From positions 1 through 21,259 of IMG/VR virus record IMGVR_UViG_3300031700_000008: a stretch of DNA of 21,259 nt; one strand, given 5' to 3'. Below, in pieces: positions 610 to 19,226 of the stretch. Below the pieces are notes generated by a model. It was not told where the DNA came from. It did not search any database and saw only the letters and a list, made by a program, of their open reading frames with translations. The position numbers and the translations under genes were made by a program. The DNA comes from a virus. Numbering within the stretch: position 1 is the first letter of the stretch; each line of letters starts with the position of its first letter.

Positions 610-2526
610 ATGACATTAACAACGACAAATTACCGTGCGGATTACGTTCCTGACAACGATGGTATCGTTGTTGATCTTTCCGATCACGCTGACGCCCTCA
701 TGAACTATGAGGACATATCCTCACGTCTCAGCGTCGAGCAAGAACAGAAGCTCGTAGACTACGTACGATCCGCGATGCAGATGTCATACGACCGCATCTC
801 CAAACGCTACGAGCATTGGAAGCAAGCTGACCGCGCGCATGACGTTTACGTACGTCCCGACGCCACGCAGTTCCGCGAGAAGGCGGTCATCGCTGACACT
901 CGCGCCATATCTGACACGGTTCACACCTACCTGATGGCTGCCCTTACGGGCCGCAATCCAATGTTCCAGTTGGAAGGTCTCAACAGAAAATCGCGCAAGT
1001 CATCTCAGATCATTGAACGCCTACTACACCAACAGATGCGCCGCACAGCAGGGGAGGCTCGAATTGCCCAACACCTTCTGGACAGTATTCGGTACGGATA
1101 CGCCCCCACAAAAGTTACGTGGGATGCTTCAAGCAAGACGAACAAGATCACCAACTTCGACCCGCGCCGCGTATTCCACGACCCCCGCGTCCAGTGGGGA
1201 GATTGGGAGAGGATGCAGTACATCATCTTTTCTGATTTCTCATCTTATGACGCTCTCCTCCAGACGGGCATGTACCCTAAACTCAAAGAGTACCCCGCCC
1301 TCCGAAACAAGTTTGCCGCTCCGACTGGTGGGTGGGACGGACATAAGTGGCATAAAGAAGCCGGACGAGGATTAAGTATTGACCCCGCAGAGCGCAACGC
1401 TCGCGGTGGCGGCACCTTCTTCGCATTGGGTGACAGCCGTATCATCGACGAGAGCTGGATACGTCTAGCTGGGTACGAGATTGGTGTCCCGCAAATAGAA
1501 CAGTTGTGGATGTGCATCACCGTCCTAGACGAGAACGTCATCATCCGCTGCCAACTCAACCCTTACGGCAGGCAGTTTCCTGTTGTAATCGGCGGCCTGT
1601 ACCACGACGCGCATAAGACCTACTCCCAGTCGCTTTATGACATCCTCCTCCCACTACATGATGTCGCGACATGGCTGTTGCGCAGCCGCATCGACAACGT
1701 ACAGGCCGCTTTGACCAATCTTATGTTCGTTGACCCCACTCAAGTCGCTATCGGAGACCTCATAGACCGCAATGCGCACGGTATTGTACGCACTATGCCT
1801 GGTGTTAAGCCTGGTGATGGCGTGTTTATCGCCAACGTCCCCGACGTTACGCGAGGTCATTGGAACGATATCGAGGCAATGTCGGGCCTAAAGCAGCGTT
1901 TATCCGCCGCTTCCGACGCTCAACAGGGTATGCCCACCGCAGAAGGCGGCGTACGCACAGCGACAGAGATACAGCGCCTTACGCAACTAGGCTCTCAGCG
2001 CCTTGGCGTACTCGCTCGTACGATCAGTGCCACTTCCGTACGGCCAATGGCCCGCATGATGGTAGCCAACGTGCAGGATTTCTTCGCTGCTGAAAGCTCT
2101 ATCCGCATTGGCGAGCAAGACAATGCTTCATCACTACGTGGCATGGTCAACGACGGCTACCTCGACTTCAAGCTGTCAGACATCCAAGGCGAAATCGACT
2201 ACCTCGTCGTAGACGGCACCTTACCACTTGAGCCAACCCGCAATGCTGAGACTTGGATCACCATGCTCAAGACCCTCAACGAGACGGGTCTCGCGATGGA
2301 GTACAACTCAGGCAAGATCGTCGAGGAGGCCATCCGCTCTATGGGTGTCTCAGACTTGGATCAGTTCAAAATATCCAAAGAGCAGCAGGCCGAGGGGCCA
2401 ACCAAGTCGCAAGAAATGATGATTGCGGAAAAAGCCCGTGGCGCATCCGTACAGCCGCAGCAACAGATCGAGAGTGAAGTTCAAAGGGGCAATCTCATAC
2501 CAATGCAGGAGGCGCAGCGCCGATGA
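610..2526 (+). CDS. Portal (head-tail connector) protein
   Basis: The 638-residue product has the size and position of a podovirus portal: it follows the terminase and precedes the scaffold and capsid. Portals form the twelve-fold ring at one capsid vertex through which DNA enters and leaves. The protein opens with a helical region (about residues 40-80), then a stem/wing-like section with the phrase SIRYGYAPTKVTW (about 158-170) that recurs in podoviral portals, a central mixed region, and a C-terminal polar, Gln-rich tail (about 590-638). No signal peptide or membrane segment is apparent. The start at 610 is supported by AGGAGG at 591-596. Its stop overlaps the next ATG by four bases (ATGA), implying translational coupling. 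Family assignment rests on context and general sequence character rather than a signature motif. Confidence 0.85.
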   Translation: MTLTTTNYRADYVPDNDGIVVDLSDHADALMNYEDISSRLSVEQEQKLVDYVRSAMQMSYDRISKRYEHWKQADRAHDVYVRPDATQFREKAVIADTRAISDTVHTYLMAALTGRNPMFQLEGLNRKSRKSSQIIERLLHQQMRRTAGEARIAQHLLDSIRYGYAPTKVTWDASSKTNKITNFDPRRVFHDPRVQWGDWERMQYIIFSDFSSYDALLQTGMYPKLKEYPALRNKFAAPTGGWDGHKWHKEAGRGLSIDPAERNARGGGTFFALGDSRIIDESWIRLAGYEIGVPQIEQLWMCITVLDENVIIRCQLNPYGRQFPVVIGGLYHDAHKTYSQSLYDILLPLHDVATWLLRSRIDNVQAALTNLMFVDPTQVAIGDLIDRNAHGIVRTMPGVKPGDGVFIANVPDVTRGHWNDIEAMSGLKQRLSAASDAQQGMPTAEGGVRTATEIQRLTQLGSQRLGVLARTISATSVRPMARMMVANVQDFFAAESSIRIGEQDNASSLRGMVNDGYLDFKLSDIQGEIDYLVVDGTLPLEPTRNAETWITMLKTLNETGLAMEYNSGKIVEEAIRSMGVSDLDQFKISKEQQAEGPTKSQEMMIAEKARGASVQPQQQIESEVQRGNLIPMQEAQRR

Positions 2527-3708: not shown

Positions 3709-5547
3709 ATGCCAAACGGATTATTAGGAAAGAAGGTTGTAAACGCCCGCGACACGGAAGTTGTATATACAGTTCCGGCGGCTCGCACGTCTACATTTAA
3801 CCTCAACGTACTAAACAACGGCGAAAGCGCTGCTACCGTTAATGTATACGTATCAGACAAGGTGTACCAAACACGCGACTTTGAGGACTACCTCACCCCT
3901 CTGAACTATAACAAGACATGGGTTGCAGCCGACACGTCCAACACACTTGATCTTGTGGGCCAGAGCACATCGAAGATGATGACTGCTATGAAGACCACTC
4001 CGGTAGAGCCTGCGGCTGCGAACACGGCTTCTTCCCCTATCGCGGGTAAAAAGATAGAGACACTGCAAACAGCGAACGGTGACGGCAACTTCTTCTTGGT
4101 CAGCTCCCCTGCCGCAGTCGGAAACCCGCTGCCATTCTACACCGCAGGCGCATTGTACGTACGTTCCGCCCCAGACGGCGGCGTATATACGTTCGACAAC
4201 TTCTTCTCTGGCGGCGCAGCAACTACTGCTTCCACAAGCTACGGTCAGACCGCTACTGACAACGTGCTTTGGGCCACCAACGAGAACGCAAACTTTGCGA
4301 TGTCTTACGTACAAGGTGTTCCCGGCGGCGCAGGCTCCGTAGTCAATTCAATCGCAGACTACCGCGTCACCGCAGCTACGTACAACACTGCCTTTACTTG
4401 GGGCTTGGGCGCGATCAGCAAGATTGCTGGCATTAAGACTTCTGAAGAACGCTTTATTATCGGCACCACCACTGGCTTTAACTATATGTCTAACGACGCA
4501 ACGCCACAAACCCAGTCTGAGTTCCAATCTAACACCATGTCACCACCGACAGGTATCTCTGGGTTTATGATTGGTGCGGCAGCGATTGAAGGTTCAACCG
4601 TCAACGAGGGCAACATCTTCATCGCCTACTCCGGCAACAAGGTTGCGTACGCTGGATACACGGCAGCAGCACCGTTCCCGGTAACGGGCTACAGTGTATT
4701 TGATTTCCCATCGGGAGTTGTGTTCACTGACGTTGTTGACATTCGGGCTGAGGGTACGAGCTTTGTTATAGTTGTAGCTGGCGGAACCAAGCACAGCACG
4801 GCAGACCTTGGCATAACATGGACGGCATCAAAGCACTACGCGGCGATGCCAGTTGGCATCACGGTTGCCTCCATCTCGGGGCAAAACAAGTTCGTCAACG
4901 ACGACCTATCAACAAACGTGACTGAGCTTACATTCGTACGCGGTCGTACGTACCGCTTGCACCAGCAGGCGGCAGCGAACAACGGCCACCCTCTTCAGTT
5001 CTCCGAAGTCTCCGGCGGGCCACACTCTAACGGCACCCCTTACTCAACAGGCATGAAATTCATGTTGGGCGACCCAACTGCGACAGCGCCTTTCACTGTA
5101 GAGACGACGGTAAACGCGGATTGGGTGTCTGGTCACGTCACGCACGACGGCAAGACACGGATCATCGAGTGGACTGTACCGGCATCTGCGCCGAATACTC
5201 TCTACACGTACTGCCCGAACCACACCAATATGGGTTACGCAGTCTCAATCGTGGACGAAGACACGGTTGCGCCACACGACGACGCCACGGCTCTCGCCAC
5301 TGTAAACATCTACAACGCCGACAACGGCGATGCGGATCGTCGCTACGACCTGACCTTCAACGGTGAGGCTTACATGCGCGAGAAACGCTTCTACGCTCTG
5401 CCTTTGCTCGACAAGTACGAAAAGTCTGAGATTGCTGCTGGTGAAATCTTGGAGCGCACAGCGATCATGGCAAGTGTTGGCGAGCAAGTAATTGTCACGA
5501 CGAGCGGAGACAGTATTGTAGTTCGCGTTCACGGCATCGAGGAGTAA
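3709..5547 (+). CDS. Tail/fibre-associated structural protein with an Asp-box and an amicyanin-like cupredoxin domain
   Basis: 612 residues, three visible parts. Residues 1-105 are a beta-rich N-terminal region typical of marine phage virion proteins. Residues about 130-390 are beta-rich; T364-W371 (TADLGITW) fits the Asp-box S/T-x-D-x-G-x-T-W of sialidase-like propellers. Residues about 395-517 resemble a cupredoxin: VTELTFVRGRTYRLHQ, then H427 in NGHPL, and C502, H505, M508 in YCPNHTNMGY. H...C-x2-H-x2-M is the type 1 copper ligand set with amicyanin spacing. The last 95 residues are again virion-like and end in a basic/acidic tail. GAGG at 3699-3702 serves the ATG. Position among fibre genes suggests an exposed virion protein. 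Copper binding is predicted from ligands only; a metal-free carbohydrate-binding use of the fold is the alternative. Confidence 0.75.
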   Translation: MPNGLLGKKVVNARDTEVVYTVPAARTSTFNLNVLNNGESAATVNVYVSDKVYQTRDFEDYLTPLNYNKTWVAADTSNTLDLVGQSTSKMMTAMKTTPVEPAAANTASSPIAGKKIETLQTANGDGNFFLVSSPAAVGNPLPFYTAGALYVRSAPDGGVYTFDNFFSGGAATTASTSYGQTATDNVLWATNENANFAMSYVQGVPGGAGSVVNSIADYRVTAATYNTAFTWGLGAISKIAGIKTSEERFIIGTTTGFNYMSNDATPQTQSEFQSNTMSPPTGISGFMIGAAAIEGSTVNEGNIFIAYSGNKVAYAGYTAAAPFPVTGYSVFDFPSGVVFTDVVDIRAEGTSFVIVVAGGTKHSTADLGITWTASKHYAAMPVGITVASISGQNKFVNDDLSTNVTELTFVRGRTYRLHQQAAANNGHPLQFSEVSGGPHSNGTPYSTGMKFMLGDPTATAPFTVETTVNADWVSGHVTHDGKTRIIEWTVPASAPNTLYTYCPNHTNMGYAVSIVDEDTVAPHDDATALATVNIYNADNGDADRRYDLTFNGEAYMREKRFYALPLLDKYEKSEIAAGEILERTAIMASVGEQVIVTTSGDSIVVRVHGIEE

Positions 5548-8229: not shown

Positions 8230-8865
8230 ATGACATTTGCCAACCCATTTGGCTTCCCCATTTTCCATGAGATTATAGAGAATGGAGAGGAGCTTGCAGA
8301 AAATCTCTGCAAAGACGCCTACGATCTAAGAGACGATGATCCTAATGGCAAACTTATTAGCAACGCTTGGCACAAGTTCGACCGAGCAAAGTCTAAAGAA
8401 GACTACAAAGAGCACGGGTACACAAGCCACGGCGCGTACCAGCTCTCCAGTGATGAACGGTTCGAAGGCATACACAAGGCAGCCGTCGCGCAAGCACAGA
8501 AGTACACCAAGAACCTAGAGGCAGACCCAAAGTTCTATATCACGAACAGTTGGGTATCCATCTATGGCAATGGCCACTTTGCCCCAGAACATATCCACAG
8601 TTTCGCGCACTTGGCTTGTGTCTTTTACGGTGCGACCACTGAAGGAACGGGCGAGATAGTCTTTAGGAACCCTGCCGCTGCAAGCTACAACATGGTTTAC
8701 GGCAACGGCTTTAACCTTTGGAACGACAGGTACACGTTAAACCCGACGCCTGGAATGATGGTAATCTTCCCAGCGCATATGGCGCACCTCACCAACCCGC
8801 ATATGTCTGATGAGGATCGGGTTATATTTAGCTGCAACATAGTGTTCGAAGAATGCACTTTCTAG
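8230..8865 (+). CDS. 2-oxoglutarate/Fe(II)-dependent oxygenase family protein
   Basis: 211 residues with the double-stranded beta-helix core of the putative 2OG-Fe(II) oxygenase family common in marine phages. The segment NSWVSIYGNGHFAPEHIHSF carries H121 and H123, and FPAHMAHLTNPH carries H183 and H186, then R197 in SDEDRV: these give the H-x-H/D...H iron triad and the arginine expected to bind the 2OG carboxylate. The GTGEIVF and PGMMVIFP strands are typical. Family members hydroxylate proteins, nucleobases or small molecules; the substrate is not predictable. It follows a terminator at 8184-8209, with AAGG at 8217-8220 as a modest ribosome site, so it may have its own transcript or depend on read-through. 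Its place amid virion genes suggests modification of a virion or host-surface component, which is inference. Confidence 0.85.
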   Translation: MTFANPFGFPIFHEIIENGEELAENLCKDAYDLRDDDPNGKLISNAWHKFDRAKSKEDYKEHGYTSHGAYQLSSDERFEGIHKAAVAQAQKYTKNLEADPKFYITNSWVSIYGNGHFAPEHIHSFAHLACVFYGATTEGTGEIVFRNPAAASYNMVYGNGFNLWNDRYTLNPTPGMMVIFPAHMAHLTNPHMSDEDRVIFSCNIVFEECTF

Positions 8866-10940: not shown

Positions 10941-12104
10941 ATGGCTGGTATCCAAGGACTACGGGGCTCAGGTCAGTTTGCTGCTGACTTCCGCCCGAAA
11001 AACTATCGCGAGCTTTTTACGCTCTTAGAACCAAACGGCAATGCACCTCTGAATGCTTTGTTGGCAATGACTTCCTCTGAAGCCACTGATGATAGTGAAT
11101 TTAAAAATTTCCGTGACGAACTTCCTGCTCGTACACTGACAGTGAATGGCGCTTTGTCAAACTCTGCTACAACTATCACTGTAGACGCAGGCAATGATGT
11201 ATTGTTTGCAGTTGGCGGCACTATCGTTGTCAACGCTGCGACAAACGAAGTTATGCGTTGTACTGCTGATGCGACCGCGACTACTTTGACTGTTGAGCGT
11301 GGCATTGGTGGCGGTGCAGCGTCTATTGCTGACGGCGCTGATTTGTTCATTGCGGGTTCTGCGTTCTCTGAAGGTGCTAATACACCTACAGGCGTATCAT
11401 TCGACGCAAGCGTTGCTTCGAACTTCACGCAAATCTTCCGTACGGCCTTCACAATCACCAACACTCTACGCGCAACGAACTTGCGTACTGGTGACAAAGA
11501 AGACGAGATGACAACAAAAGCTCTCAAGATGCACATGCAAGATATTGAGCGCGCAATGTTCTTCGGTAAGAAGCACGAAGCAAACGCTGCATCATCTCAG
11601 CCAACTCGCTACACAGGCGGCTTGATTAACTCGATCACTAACGTCAACGACCGTTCAACTTCTTCTAGCACGATGACAGAAGACCAGTTCGACCGTTCAC
11701 TTATCGAAGATGTGTTCGCGTTTGGTGGAAACCAAAAGATCATGTTCTGTGGCGCAAAAGTTGCGGGTCACTTGCAGAAGTTCGGCAAAGACCGTTGGGC
11801 TCCAACAGTTGTTGAAGGTGCGTACGGCGTTGGCCTTACTCGCTACTCCACATTTGCTGGTGATCTTATGGTTCACTTGCACCCACAGTTCCGCCAAGTA
11901 CCTGGTATGGAGAGCTCCGCAGTCATCATCGACTTCCCGCACCTCAAGTACCGTTACTTGGAAGGCCGTGATACTTCCTTGCTTCGCGACCGTCAGGCCA
12001 ATGGCGCTGACCAAGCGGCACACGAGTACCTCACAGAGTGTGGTCTCGAAATGTTGCAAGACAAGACGCACCACTACATCAAAAACTGGAACCTTACAGC
12101 CTAA
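10941..12104 (+). CDS. Major capsid protein (HK97 fold)
   Basis: 387 residues, the size usual for HK97-fold coat proteins. Position after the scaffold, a private leader and flanking terminators indicate the most highly expressed late gene. The N-arm (MAGIQGLRGSGQFAADFRPK) leads to a beta-rich insertion-like region (about residues 65-145) and then the P-domain-like core, including the long helix TKALKMHMQDIERAMFFGKK (about 192-211) characteristic of the SU10-like (formerly DUF5309) coat family. The C-terminal A-domain has FGKDRWAPTVVEGAYGVGL and HEYLTECGLEMLQDKTHHYI. The start is fixed by AAAGGAG at 10926-10932. Family naming is from memory; the coat-protein role is well supported by context. 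Confidence 0.88.
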   Translation: MAGIQGLRGSGQFAADFRPKNYRELFTLLEPNGNAPLNALLAMTSSEATDDSEFKNFRDELPARTLTVNGALSNSATTITVDAGNDVLFAVGGTIVVNAATNEVMRCTADATATTLTVERGIGGGAASIADGADLFIAGSAFSEGANTPTGVSFDASVASNFTQIFRTAFTITNTLRATNLRTGDKEDEMTTKALKMHMQDIERAMFFGKKHEANAASSQPTRYTGGLINSITNVNDRSTSSSTMTEDQFDRSLIEDVFAFGGNQKIMFCGAKVAGHLQKFGKDRWAPTVVEGAYGVGLTRYSTFAGDLMVHLHPQFRQVPGMESSAVIIDFPHLKYRYLEGRDTSLLRDRQANGADQAAHEYLTECGLEMLQDKTHHYIKNWNLTA

Positions 12105-17299: not shown

Positions 17300-17545
17300 A
17301 TGGCATTTAGTACAGAAATTTTTGGCCCGAACACCGGAACGTCTATTGCGGCACGTCGTGAAGCTGGATCAACAGAGCAGACAGCAGAAATGGGACGTGG
17401 TGGCGACAGCATGATGGTTCGCTCTTCACCGTTCACGATCAAGCTATTGCAAGACATCGGTGGCGCAGGCTCGTTTAACCCTGAGACGGGTATGCTTGAG
17501 TTCTACGACGTAGATGAAGCTGTAAAGAAAGCCTACGGTCAGTAA
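17300..17545 (+). CDS. Small protein of unknown function
   Basis: 81 residues beginning MAFSTEIFGPNTGTSIAARR, with a polar Gly/Met-rich middle and an acidic end (YDVDEAVKKAYGQ). Not recognised. The ATG at 17300 is preferred over the GTG three bases earlier because AAAGGAG (17287-17293) is six bases before it. It is joined to the acetyltransferase by TAATG. A small virion component is plausible from its place. Confidence 0.68.
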   Translation: MAFSTEIFGPNTGTSIAARREAGSTEQTAEMGRGGDSMMVRSSPFTIKLLQDIGGAGSFNPETGMLEFYDVDEAVKKAYGQ

Positions 17546-17997
17546 TGATCCAGTATAGTGCCATTACTAAAGACGACGGCCCTGCTCTATGTGAGCTGGG
17601 CGCGTTGATGCACGAAGAAAGCTCGTACTCTGAGCTAGAGTTTAACCCCTCTAGGGTGATCGAGACCTTCAATGCCTATTTGGATAATGACACTAGAGCC
17701 TGCTTTATCGCCAGTGAAGATGGCAAGCCAGTCGGCTTGTACGCGGGATACATGAACAAATACTACTTTAGCGACGAGTACGTTGCGAACGACATAGCGT
17801 GGTTCGTCGTTAAGGAAAAACGCGGCACTCGCGTTGGTCTGCGACTTCTCGATATGTTCGAAGATTGGGCTAAAGAGAGAGGCGCGTCTGAAGTCAGGAT
17901 AGGCTACAGCACCGACATAAACCCAAAGGCGTTTAATAGCCTGATGCAGAAGCGAGGCTACAATCTAGTCGGCGCAAACTACCGCTTGGAGAGATAG
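17545..17997 (+). CDS. GNAT-family N-acetyltransferase-like protein
   Basis: 150 residues with the GNAT fold order: N-terminal strand (MIQYSAITKDDGPALCEL), helices, then strand CFIASEDGKPVGLYAGYMNK, strand DIAWFVVKEKRG and the acetyl-CoA loop/helix RGTRVGLRLLDMFEDWAKER (motif A, R93 to G98; the first G of the Q/R-x-x-G-x-G/A consensus is R96), followed by SEVRIGYS and a C-terminal GYNLVGANYRLER. GNAT-like proteins of this size sit at the T7 gene 13 position in some marine podoviruses, beside the ejection proteins, and may be structural or modify a virion/host protein. Whether it still acetylates is unknown. It starts in TAATG with the preceding gene. Confidence 0.82.
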   Translation: MIQYSAITKDDGPALCELGALMHEESSYSELEFNPSRVIETFNAYLDNDTRACFIASEDGKPVGLYAGYMNKYYFSDEYVANDIAWFVVKEKRGTRVGLRLLDMFEDWAKERGASEVRIGYSTDINPKAFNSLMQKRGYNLVGANYRLER

Positions 17998-17999
17998 CA

Positions 18000-19226
18000 A
18001 TGGCAACTTTTAACAGCTACATTTTTGGCTCTTTTTTAGACAGACGCTTGTTCGCAAAGGACGGCGGTGGCGACCCCGGTGATGACGACAACAACTCAAG
18101 CTCGGCCTCTAACGCAATGACGGTACAGGCTGGCGATACCCTTAGTCAGATTGCGCAGGCTAATAACACGACTGTTGACGCTATTGCTGCGGCCAACAAT
18201 ATTTCTGACGTTAATCAAATCCAAGCTGGCCAGAACTTGAGTATGCCTACGAGCAACACCAACTTCAACACAGTCAGCGATACAAACACCAGCGATAGCG
18301 CGGGTAGCAACACCACCCGTATGGACATTGCCAACAGCATTACCAAAAATGACGGCACGACCTACAAGGACGGCATTCTCTACAACGATAGTGACAACAG
18401 CCAAGTTACCTATACAACTCCATACCAGAACCTTGCGGATGCTTTTACGCCAAATGACGGCACGACCTACAACCAAGGACAGCTTGTTGACGGTAATGAC
18501 AATACATTACGTCAAAACGTAGCTAACAGCATTACCGGACCAGACGGAATGGTGTACCAAGGCGGCAATCTATACAACGAAGGAGACGGTTCACTTGTTA
18601 CTGATAACACTTCGTACCAAGACCTTACGAACCTCGTTACCCCGTTCGACGGCTCTATGTACGAAGACGGCCAACTGACACAAGGCACTGGCGCGTCAAT
18701 CGGTACTGCATACATTCCCCCACCCCCGACAGATAATGACGATGATACGCCAGCCACAACTACAGCCACTACTACTGACACCACTACTGAAGTTGATACT
18801 GATACTACTGAAACTGAAACCGCTGAAACTGATACGACTGGCACTGATACGGTCGATTACACTGACTTGGTAGAAGTCCTTGAGAGCTTTACGCCTGGCG
18901 GTCAGAGCGTGACTTCTCTTCCCGATGAGTATCTCACACAGGAAGACCTTGAGAAATATCTAGCGAACCTTGATCTAGGCTCAAACGCCTATGACCCAGC
19001 AGCATTTCTTAATGCGTACGGGTTTGCCTTAGACGGAACGCAGAACAACCTGATTGCCAACACATCACCGTCTAGCGGTGTGTTCACACGCCGAGCTGTT
19101 AAGGATCGTGAAACTGGAGAAATACGGTACGTCAATGTGCCTGTTGGAAGTGGTGCTATCGACGGAAATAACGGAGCAAGCCAGTTCCGCCTCGACCGTC
19201 GCAACGGCTTTGCCTCTATGGTTTAG
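18000..19226 (+). CDS. LysM-domain virion protein with repeats and Thr/Asp-rich linker
   Basis: 408 residues. Residues 40-83 form a LysM domain (AGDTLSQIAQANNTTVDAIA, IQAGQNLSMP), a peptidoglycan/chitin-binding fold. Residues about 111-232 hold four imperfect copies of a short unit that begins ANSIT, ADAFT, ANSIT and TNLVT and carries xDGxxYxxGxLx; spacing is 35, 29 and 35 residues. A PPPP tract and a Thr/Asp/Glu-only linker (about 240-285) precede a C-terminal domain. It sits between the GNAT and gp14-like genes, suggesting a cell-wall-binding ejection or tail-tip component. No lysozyme, NlpC or transglycosylase catalytic motif is visible, so wall binding rather than cutting is inferred. Confidence 0.75.
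   Translation: MATFNSYIFGSFLDRRLFAKDGGGDPGDDDNNSSSASNAMTVQAGDTLSQIAQANNTTVDAIAAANNISDVNQIQAGQNLSMPTSNTNFNTVSDTNTSDSAGSNTTRMDIANSITKNDGTTYKDGILYNDSDNSQVTYTTPYQNLADAFTPNDGTTYNQGQLVDGNDNTLRQNVANSITGPDGMVYQGGNLYNEGDGSLVTDNTSYQDLTNLVTPFDGSMYEDGQLTQGTGASIGTAYIPPPPTDNDDDTPATTTATTTDTTTEVDTDTTETETAETDTTGTDTVDYTDLVEVLESFTPGGQSVTSLPDEYLTQEDLEKYLANLDLGSNAYDPAAFLNAYGFALDGTQNNLIANTSPSSGVFTRRAVKDRETGEIRYVNVPVGSGAIDGNNGASQFRLDRRNGFASMV
18330..18690 (+). repeat. Four imperfect repeats in the LysM gene, with an exact 21-base direct repeat
   Basis: The four protein repeats at residues about 111-232 are also visible in the DNA: 18347-18367 and 18452-18472 are identical over 21 bases (encoding NDGTTY), 105 bases apart. 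The in-frame spacing of 35 codons suggests a recent internal duplication. Confidence 0.7.

Follow-up and report, generated by a model that had tools for sequence, protein, structure and literature searches.

A domain of a 612-residue putative virion protein, encoded on a fragment of an uncultured virus (IMG/VR virus record of 21,259 bases, analysed in its entirety and referred to below as the window), is predicted to fold as a cupredoxin and to possess all the ligands of type 1 copper, i.e., His, Cys, His and an axial Met on a loop of amicyanin length. The domain would be placed in the outer part of a marine podovirus particle, each copy probably taking up one copper ion, which would be loaded after lysis out of seawater or cell debris. 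It would thus represent a metal-stabilised surface module, most likely attaching to the host or the host envelope. This reading as a whole is held with moderate confidence. The domain itself is a widespread and so far unnamed cupredoxin-like module, common to virion proteins of marine phages and to proteins that marine bacteria and archaea export.

The gene is preceded by terminase and SU10-like portal genes and followed by the major head protein gene (Table 1), a setting which makes a virion role likely. Moreover, virion families of the PHROG collection match the domain (baseplate wedge/tail-fibre connector, 2.1e-8), which is common to annotated virion proteins. Gene position and PHROG matches thus point to the 612-aa product as a likely virion protein, and its description as a phage structural protein in the first-pass annotation fits this inference. 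Among the relatives of the whole protein, 30 of 33 loci are near copies, while 3 match residues 382–513 only. AlphaFold2 prediction on all 612 residues with 12 near relatives yielded no usable full-length fold (mean pLDDT 34.6).

Table 1 Coordinates of the virion protein gene, its predicted copper-site features and neighbouring structural genes in the window
Feature	Position	Strand	Basis
SU10-like portal protein gene (context)	610..2526	+	Pfam SU10_portal 1e-26
Putative virion protein gene, 612 aa, carrying the domain	3709..5547, stop included	+	ORF, PHROG matches, neighbours
Predicted cupredoxin-like domain, residues about 382–517	4852..5259	+	AlphaFold2 model 372–525, Foldseek, VIA-align 2
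H427 codon, predicted first His ligand	4987..4989	+	Conserved alignment column
Subfamily-specific insert, residues about 452–481	5062..5151	+	Low pLDDT; gapped in most relatives
C502 codon, predicted thiolate ligand	5212..5214	+	Sequence, conservation
H505 codon, predicted second His ligand	5221..5223	+	Sequence, conservation
M508 codon, predicted axial ligand (Gln, Leu or Tyr in some relatives)	5230..5232	+	
Major head protein gene (context)	10941..12104	+	PHROG 1328, 1.8e-37

In another record (IMGVR_UViG_3300025652_000005, 53,289 bases; loci L005, L180 and L183), a closely related gene lies partly at one end and partly at the other; the record may therefore represent a near-complete genome from this phage group in circularly permuted form. 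Further genes of the window encode a 2OG-Fe(II) oxygenase within the structural cluster (8230–8865; Pfam 2OG-FeII_Oxy_5 5e-13, PHROG 81 1.4e-37), an acetyltransferase (17545–17997; PHROG 1249, 1.7e-31) and, next after the latter, a protein with a transglycosylase/endolysin-like N-terminal part (18000–19226; PHROG 4602, 2e-13).

The candidate ligands H427, C502, H505 and M508, assigned by the first-pass annotation to residues 395–517 of the protein, were confirmed at these positions on the reading frame, as was the stretch RGRTYRLHQ ahead of H427 (residues 411–419); the nucleotide range given at that time (4891–5259) lacks the first strand of the domain. The loop CPNHTNM has the C-x2-H-x2-M spacing of amicyanin that had been noted for it, and is the sole C..H..M in the window (six-frame open stretches of at least 50 aa). 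C502 is the only Cys of the protein, which contains 10 His and 14 Met; the chance expectation of C-x2-H-x2-M in a protein of such composition is about 0.0004 by hand calculation. The motif arose other than by chance. In the alignment of near relatives, comprising the window and 14 of the 27 loci found, all four residues are invariant (15/15). The segment between H427 and C502 is long (75 residues), including the subfamily insert.

The model of residues 372–525, predicted by AlphaFold2 from an alignment of 51 sequences including the window's own (alignment A3), is an all-beta sandwich (mean pLDDT 78.9, pTM 0.76) with the Greek-key arrangement of the cupredoxin fold. Blocks of the ligand region reach pLDDT values of 88–95, those of the insert (residues 81–110 of the model) 52–67. 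As expected for type 1 ligands, the predicted Cys, His and axial residue (C131, H134 and M137 of the model, corresponding to C502, H505 and M508) are located in the loop joining the last two strands (126–130 and 140–144), and H56 (corresponding to H427) immediately precedes strand 59–61 in the manner of cupredoxins. The four residues are hence not scattered over the predicted cupredoxin-like sandwich, and the fold test named by the first-pass annotation comes out in favour of its claim.

Comparison of the model with the PDB by Foldseek retrieved what we take, from the titles, to be cupredoxin folds in 49 of the 50 matches listed (including CotA, rusticyanin, CueO and Cu nitrite reductase), whereas the remaining match is a GH123 enzyme; the best E-value is 0.0015, and none of the matches listed has one of 0.001 or below. 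On the same assumption, all 50 matches listed by VIA-align 2 are cupredoxin folds (best Z 8.0, rmsd 2.9, 105 aligned), a Z of 8 lying in the range where common structural arrangements can also score. The predicted fold is well supported by the agreement of the two comparisons, their individual scores being modest. Amicyanin is absent from the 50 matches listed by either program, which excludes nothing. Among predicted viral structures, 52 matches were obtained at an E-value of 0.001 or below, the named ones including baseplate connectors, tail fibres and virion proteins of cyanophages. Two "beta-sandwich" proteins from giant-virus metagenomes also match the model (BFVD A0A481Z6J5 and A0A481YVH3, E 6.6e-6 and 1.1e-4; source records Pithovirus LCPAC302 and Marseillevirus LCMAC201).

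Conservation of the site was analysed in phage domains gathered by three DNA anchors without ligand codons (FSTTxDGTH, GxTYxFDQSD and GSEYTTGVT); sequences not spanning both sites were left out (9/169, 16/154 and 7/160, respectively), ligand columns were masked in the alignment profile, and 216 domains were kept at less than 85 % identity. An earlier, diverse alignment had been picked by the C..H..M pattern, so that the invariance of Cys, His and Met therein is uninformative. An intermediate set of 249 domains held loci of the cellular scan whose pattern included the first His; removal of these loci left the result the same.

The His-Cys-His set is complete in 194 of the 216 domains, a frequency that applies to a sample (at least 120 stretches from each viral scan) favouring the canonical subfamilies matched by the anchors. 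In these 194 domains the axial residue is Met (188), Gln (4), Leu (1) or Tyr (1). Gln is the axial ligand of stellacyanin and Leu is found in fungal laccases, both representing natural type 1 copper variants. Of the 80 loci listed from the first ligand-free scan, 67 have all four ligands and 12 do not, one ending before the site. In the 249-domain set, Cys, His and His rank among the nine most conserved columns.

The remaining 22 domains lack all three strong ligands (12), two (8) or one (2) of them. Among 2,775 column pairs, Cys and the second His are the most correlated (phi 0.94), and the first and second His, distant in sequence, rank seventh; the first His and Cys rank twelfth. On a tree built without the ligand columns, the 22 variants correspond to about 16 loss events (counted on the best tree, branches supported or not), two or more ligands having disappeared in 14 of them and all three in 9. 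The fraction of multiple losses is 0.91 for the ligands; in 560 triplets of control columns with equal conservation, it peaks at 0.76 and has a mean of 0.16. In the variant L141, N/S/Q occupy the places of H/C/H in L048, the two domains being 87 % identical outside the ligands; a similarly recent loss separates L105 and L085 (84 % identical). If only supported branches are considered (249-domain set), Cys and the second His change the same way in five of six pairs (p 0.0625) and the first His and Cys in about two of four; 4–6 independent pairs are too few for significance, and none of the sign tests attains the 0.05 level. The rest of the domain sequence persists in the site-less variants, the site thus being dispensable in about a tenth of the domains. 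Joint loss is the behaviour of a metal site, since residues engaged in packing or receptor binding would hardly be lost together in this way. That the four ligands are kept or lost as a unit suggests that the particles carry a metal, probably copper.

Relationship to known cupredoxin families was assessed by profile comparison. Scans of the window with Pfam and NCBIfam yielded no copper-protein match; specifically, neither PF00127 (Copper-bind, cut-off 21.2 bits) nor the amicyanin model TIGR02657 (cut-off 110.2 bits) matched it. PF00127 weakly matches 7 of the 51 A3 members, and the best relative, a Woeseiaceae protein, scores 20.6 bits (E 6.2e-4), i.e., under the cut-off. TIGR02657 matches 2 of the 51 at E-values of at least 0.13; the sole genome match above its cut-off (L444) has the loop CTPHPMM. 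In the Pfam scans, no model scores the domain above its own cut-off. The plant family PF25489 (At5g54830-like) matches 10 of the 51 A3 members below cut-off (best E 2.5e-5, L107) and may be an unrecognised cupredoxin-like relative.

With a profile of 27 cellular cupredoxin sequences, 246 of 454 domain segments outscore the highest among 2,265 shuffled decoys, and only 7 remain once the ligand columns are masked; the window domain itself scores 2.4 bits, below the best decoy (8.9). Among the 58 segments aligned by a stricter rule, the first His of cupredoxins falls on a His in 40. HMM-HMM comparison with relatives of amicyanin and pseudoazurin gave a weak match (P 0.0009, probability 23), with Cys, His and Met in register and the first His two residues off. 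Solved structures yielded no relative by sequence, either with the window domain or with the diverse profile A2, whose third weak match is a pseudoazurin (E 0.72), again with Cys, His and Met in register. Since masking the ligand columns drops most matches, sequence alone is no proof of shared descent with cellular cupredoxins. Likeness to them appears to consist mostly of the ligand residues, and the type 1 ligand set may stem either from descent or from convergence. In view of the weak profile matches and below-threshold scores, the domain is designated cupredoxin-like with a type 1 ligand set rather than amicyanin.

The occurrence of similar domains in marine phage virion proteins, stated by the first-pass annotation, was borne out by PHROG, tblastn and predicted-structure matches. 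A tblastn search with the window domain retrieved 254 phage records at an E-value of 1 or below. The names Synechococcus, Prochlorococcus or Cyanophage account for 252 of them, the other two being a Pelagibacter and an uncultured record; the lowest E-values include those of S-TIM61 and S-TIM5 (8e-8) and of P-HM1 gp7 (6e-7). With a canonical relative as query, 44 phage records were found at 0.001 or below, including Pelagibacter (4) and Methylophilales (4) phages, and a plasmid search with the same query gave no match. Cyanophages, pelagiphages and Methylophilales phages carry the domain in baseplate, tail-fibre and other virion proteins.

A scan of prokaryote contigs with a pattern that includes the first His found 40 stretches. 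Some of these matches are phage-like, e.g., a Pelagibacteraceae contig with a tail-fibre-like protein, and one candidate cellular copy (L213) was rejected as a chance match inside another protein. Cellular proteins carrying the domain include a marine archaeal protein with collagen repeats (L404, 568–1830), a SAR92 protein with a phosphatidylethanolamine-binding domain (L409, 715–1803), both with lipoprotein-like starts as called by eye, and a cadherin-bearing Woeseiaceae protein (L408). The domain is also found in open frames of 5,164–9,219 aa in flavobacterial/Bacteroidetes genomes (L402, L403 and L405). Two copies on SAR86 genome contigs (L193 and L217) have an axial Gln (C-x2-H-x2-Q), a variant of stellacyanin type. 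Presence of the domain in exported-looking proteins of cells as well as in virion proteins indicates a module serving surfaces in both.

We infer the identity of the metal as copper, the time of its loading and the attachment role of the domain from these observations, copper being a prediction from the ligand set. Copper is scarce in the cytoplasm, where the phage protein would be made, which counts against this metal. No export signal was seen on the phage protein upon inspection by eye, and copper would therefore be expected to load after lysis. Alternatively, the four residues could bind another soft or borderline metal, e.g., Zn(II) or Cu(I), which would act purely as a staple holding the beta sandwich together. 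Any metal could explain joint retention and loss of the ligands, and the cytoplasm, where assembly takes place, offers more zinc than copper. However, the ligands correspond exactly to those of type 1 copper sites, with known type 1 variants in the axial Gln and Leu, whereas structural zinc sites using Met are unusual, and the domain sequence survives without the site in 22 of the 216 domains; such a staple is therefore rated unlikely, if still of some weight.

Electron transfer by the domain is possible but less likely. As a functional electron carrier, a type 1 copper of the virion would trade electrons with the surface of the host or with its respiratory chain, or else sense redox conditions to trigger ejection. 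The full type 1 ligand set would agree with this role, as would the variation of its axial residue between Met, Gln and Leu, by which cupredoxins tune their potential. Of the window genes scanned, however, none was recognised as encoding a redox partner, and the module occurs in many different, unrelated virion proteins with the site repeatedly lost while the domain is kept, rendering such a carrier improbable. A metal-stabilised contact module is favoured instead, given that the module moves among virion proteins and between phages and cells, and can lose the metal yet keep the remainder of its sequence.

Little credence is likewise given to a metal-free cupredoxin fold reused for binding, as known from ephrins and plant early nodulins, in which the conserved residues would be a fossil or serve packing. 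Such a fold would account for the 22 ligand-free variants. A fossil, however, would decay residue by residue, and loss of a single ligand is confined to 2 of the 22 variants and 2 of the 16 events; conservation of the strong ligands in the great majority of the domains also speaks against it. Hardly any credence attaches to a copper version of the iron "Trojan horse", with metal-loaded tails exploiting metal-uptake receptors of the host: the domain does occur in tail and baseplate proteins of marine phages, and the available part of PMC11705849 discusses metal-loaded tail fibres in connection with T4 and with marine phages that have HxH iron sites, but the present case lacks a known host receptor, a buried type 1 site is predicted from the ligands in place of an exposed chelate, and cells use the same module in their own exported proteins.

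In the case of a copper-loaded attachment module, as favoured here, seawater copper would bear on the adsorption or stability of the phages. Cultured carriers of the domain for such tests are available among cyanophages and pelagiphages, e.g., S-TIM5, P-HM1 and HTVC028P. With 10^10 particles per litre and 10–100 sites each, virion-bound copper is estimated at about 0.2–2 pM, which would be negligible for ocean chemistry; any importance would thus lie in infection. A more far-reaching proposal is considered quite unlikely, namely that copper proteins make up a large proportion of the tailed-phage particles in the sea, with type 1 copper modules of their baseplates, fibres and other virion parts being loaded outside the cell and used at the host surface (redox-active or as a copper lure), and with the site repeatedly switched off by the phages. 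Such switching off might perhaps occur where copper is scarce or the receptor changes.

The open-access literature searched yielded no description of phage virions bearing a cupredoxin or a copper site, subscription papers and preprints being outside the scope of the search. In the available parts of PMC10665884, PMC9146016, PMC6207643, PMC6893657, PMC10964948 and PMC9325289, mentions of copper refer to microscopy grids or a cited reference. If the particles do carry copper, type 1 sites would gain a place undescribed in the literature searched, namely virus particles as opposed to electron-transfer chains.

Amicyanin and the small type 1 copper proteins (PF00127, TIGR02657) resemble the window domain in predicted topology, the His...Cys-x2-His-x2-Met ligand order and the placement of the ligand loop, but the window domain resides within a large phage virion protein without an export signal discernible by eye and has the extended His-Cys segment. 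In structure, the model comes closest to the type 1 domains of multicopper oxidases and of Cu nitrite reductase (CotA, CueO, 2dv6); unlike these, the window domain is a single one without trinuclear or type 2 copper partner sites. According to the available part of PMC11705849, the HxH iron tail fibres (T4 gp37, Alteromonas phage R22Y) exemplify metal ions in tail proteins of marine phages, yet their sites differ in fold, ligands and metal and are located in a trimeric fibre. Cyanophages also encode a cupredoxin in plastocyanin PetE, as described in the available part of PMC3037559; PetE is a photosynthesis auxiliary metabolic gene, whereas the window domain is a putative virion part. Further counterparts are the gp7/gp9/gp10 baseplate and tail-fibre proteins of cyanophages (PHROG 677, 708 and 27200, the annotations of which mention no metal). 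They contain the same domain by sequence, with ligands identical to those of the window in the examples read, while the window copy belongs to a subfamily that has diverged, and is part of a podovirus protein with no fold assigned to its other regions.
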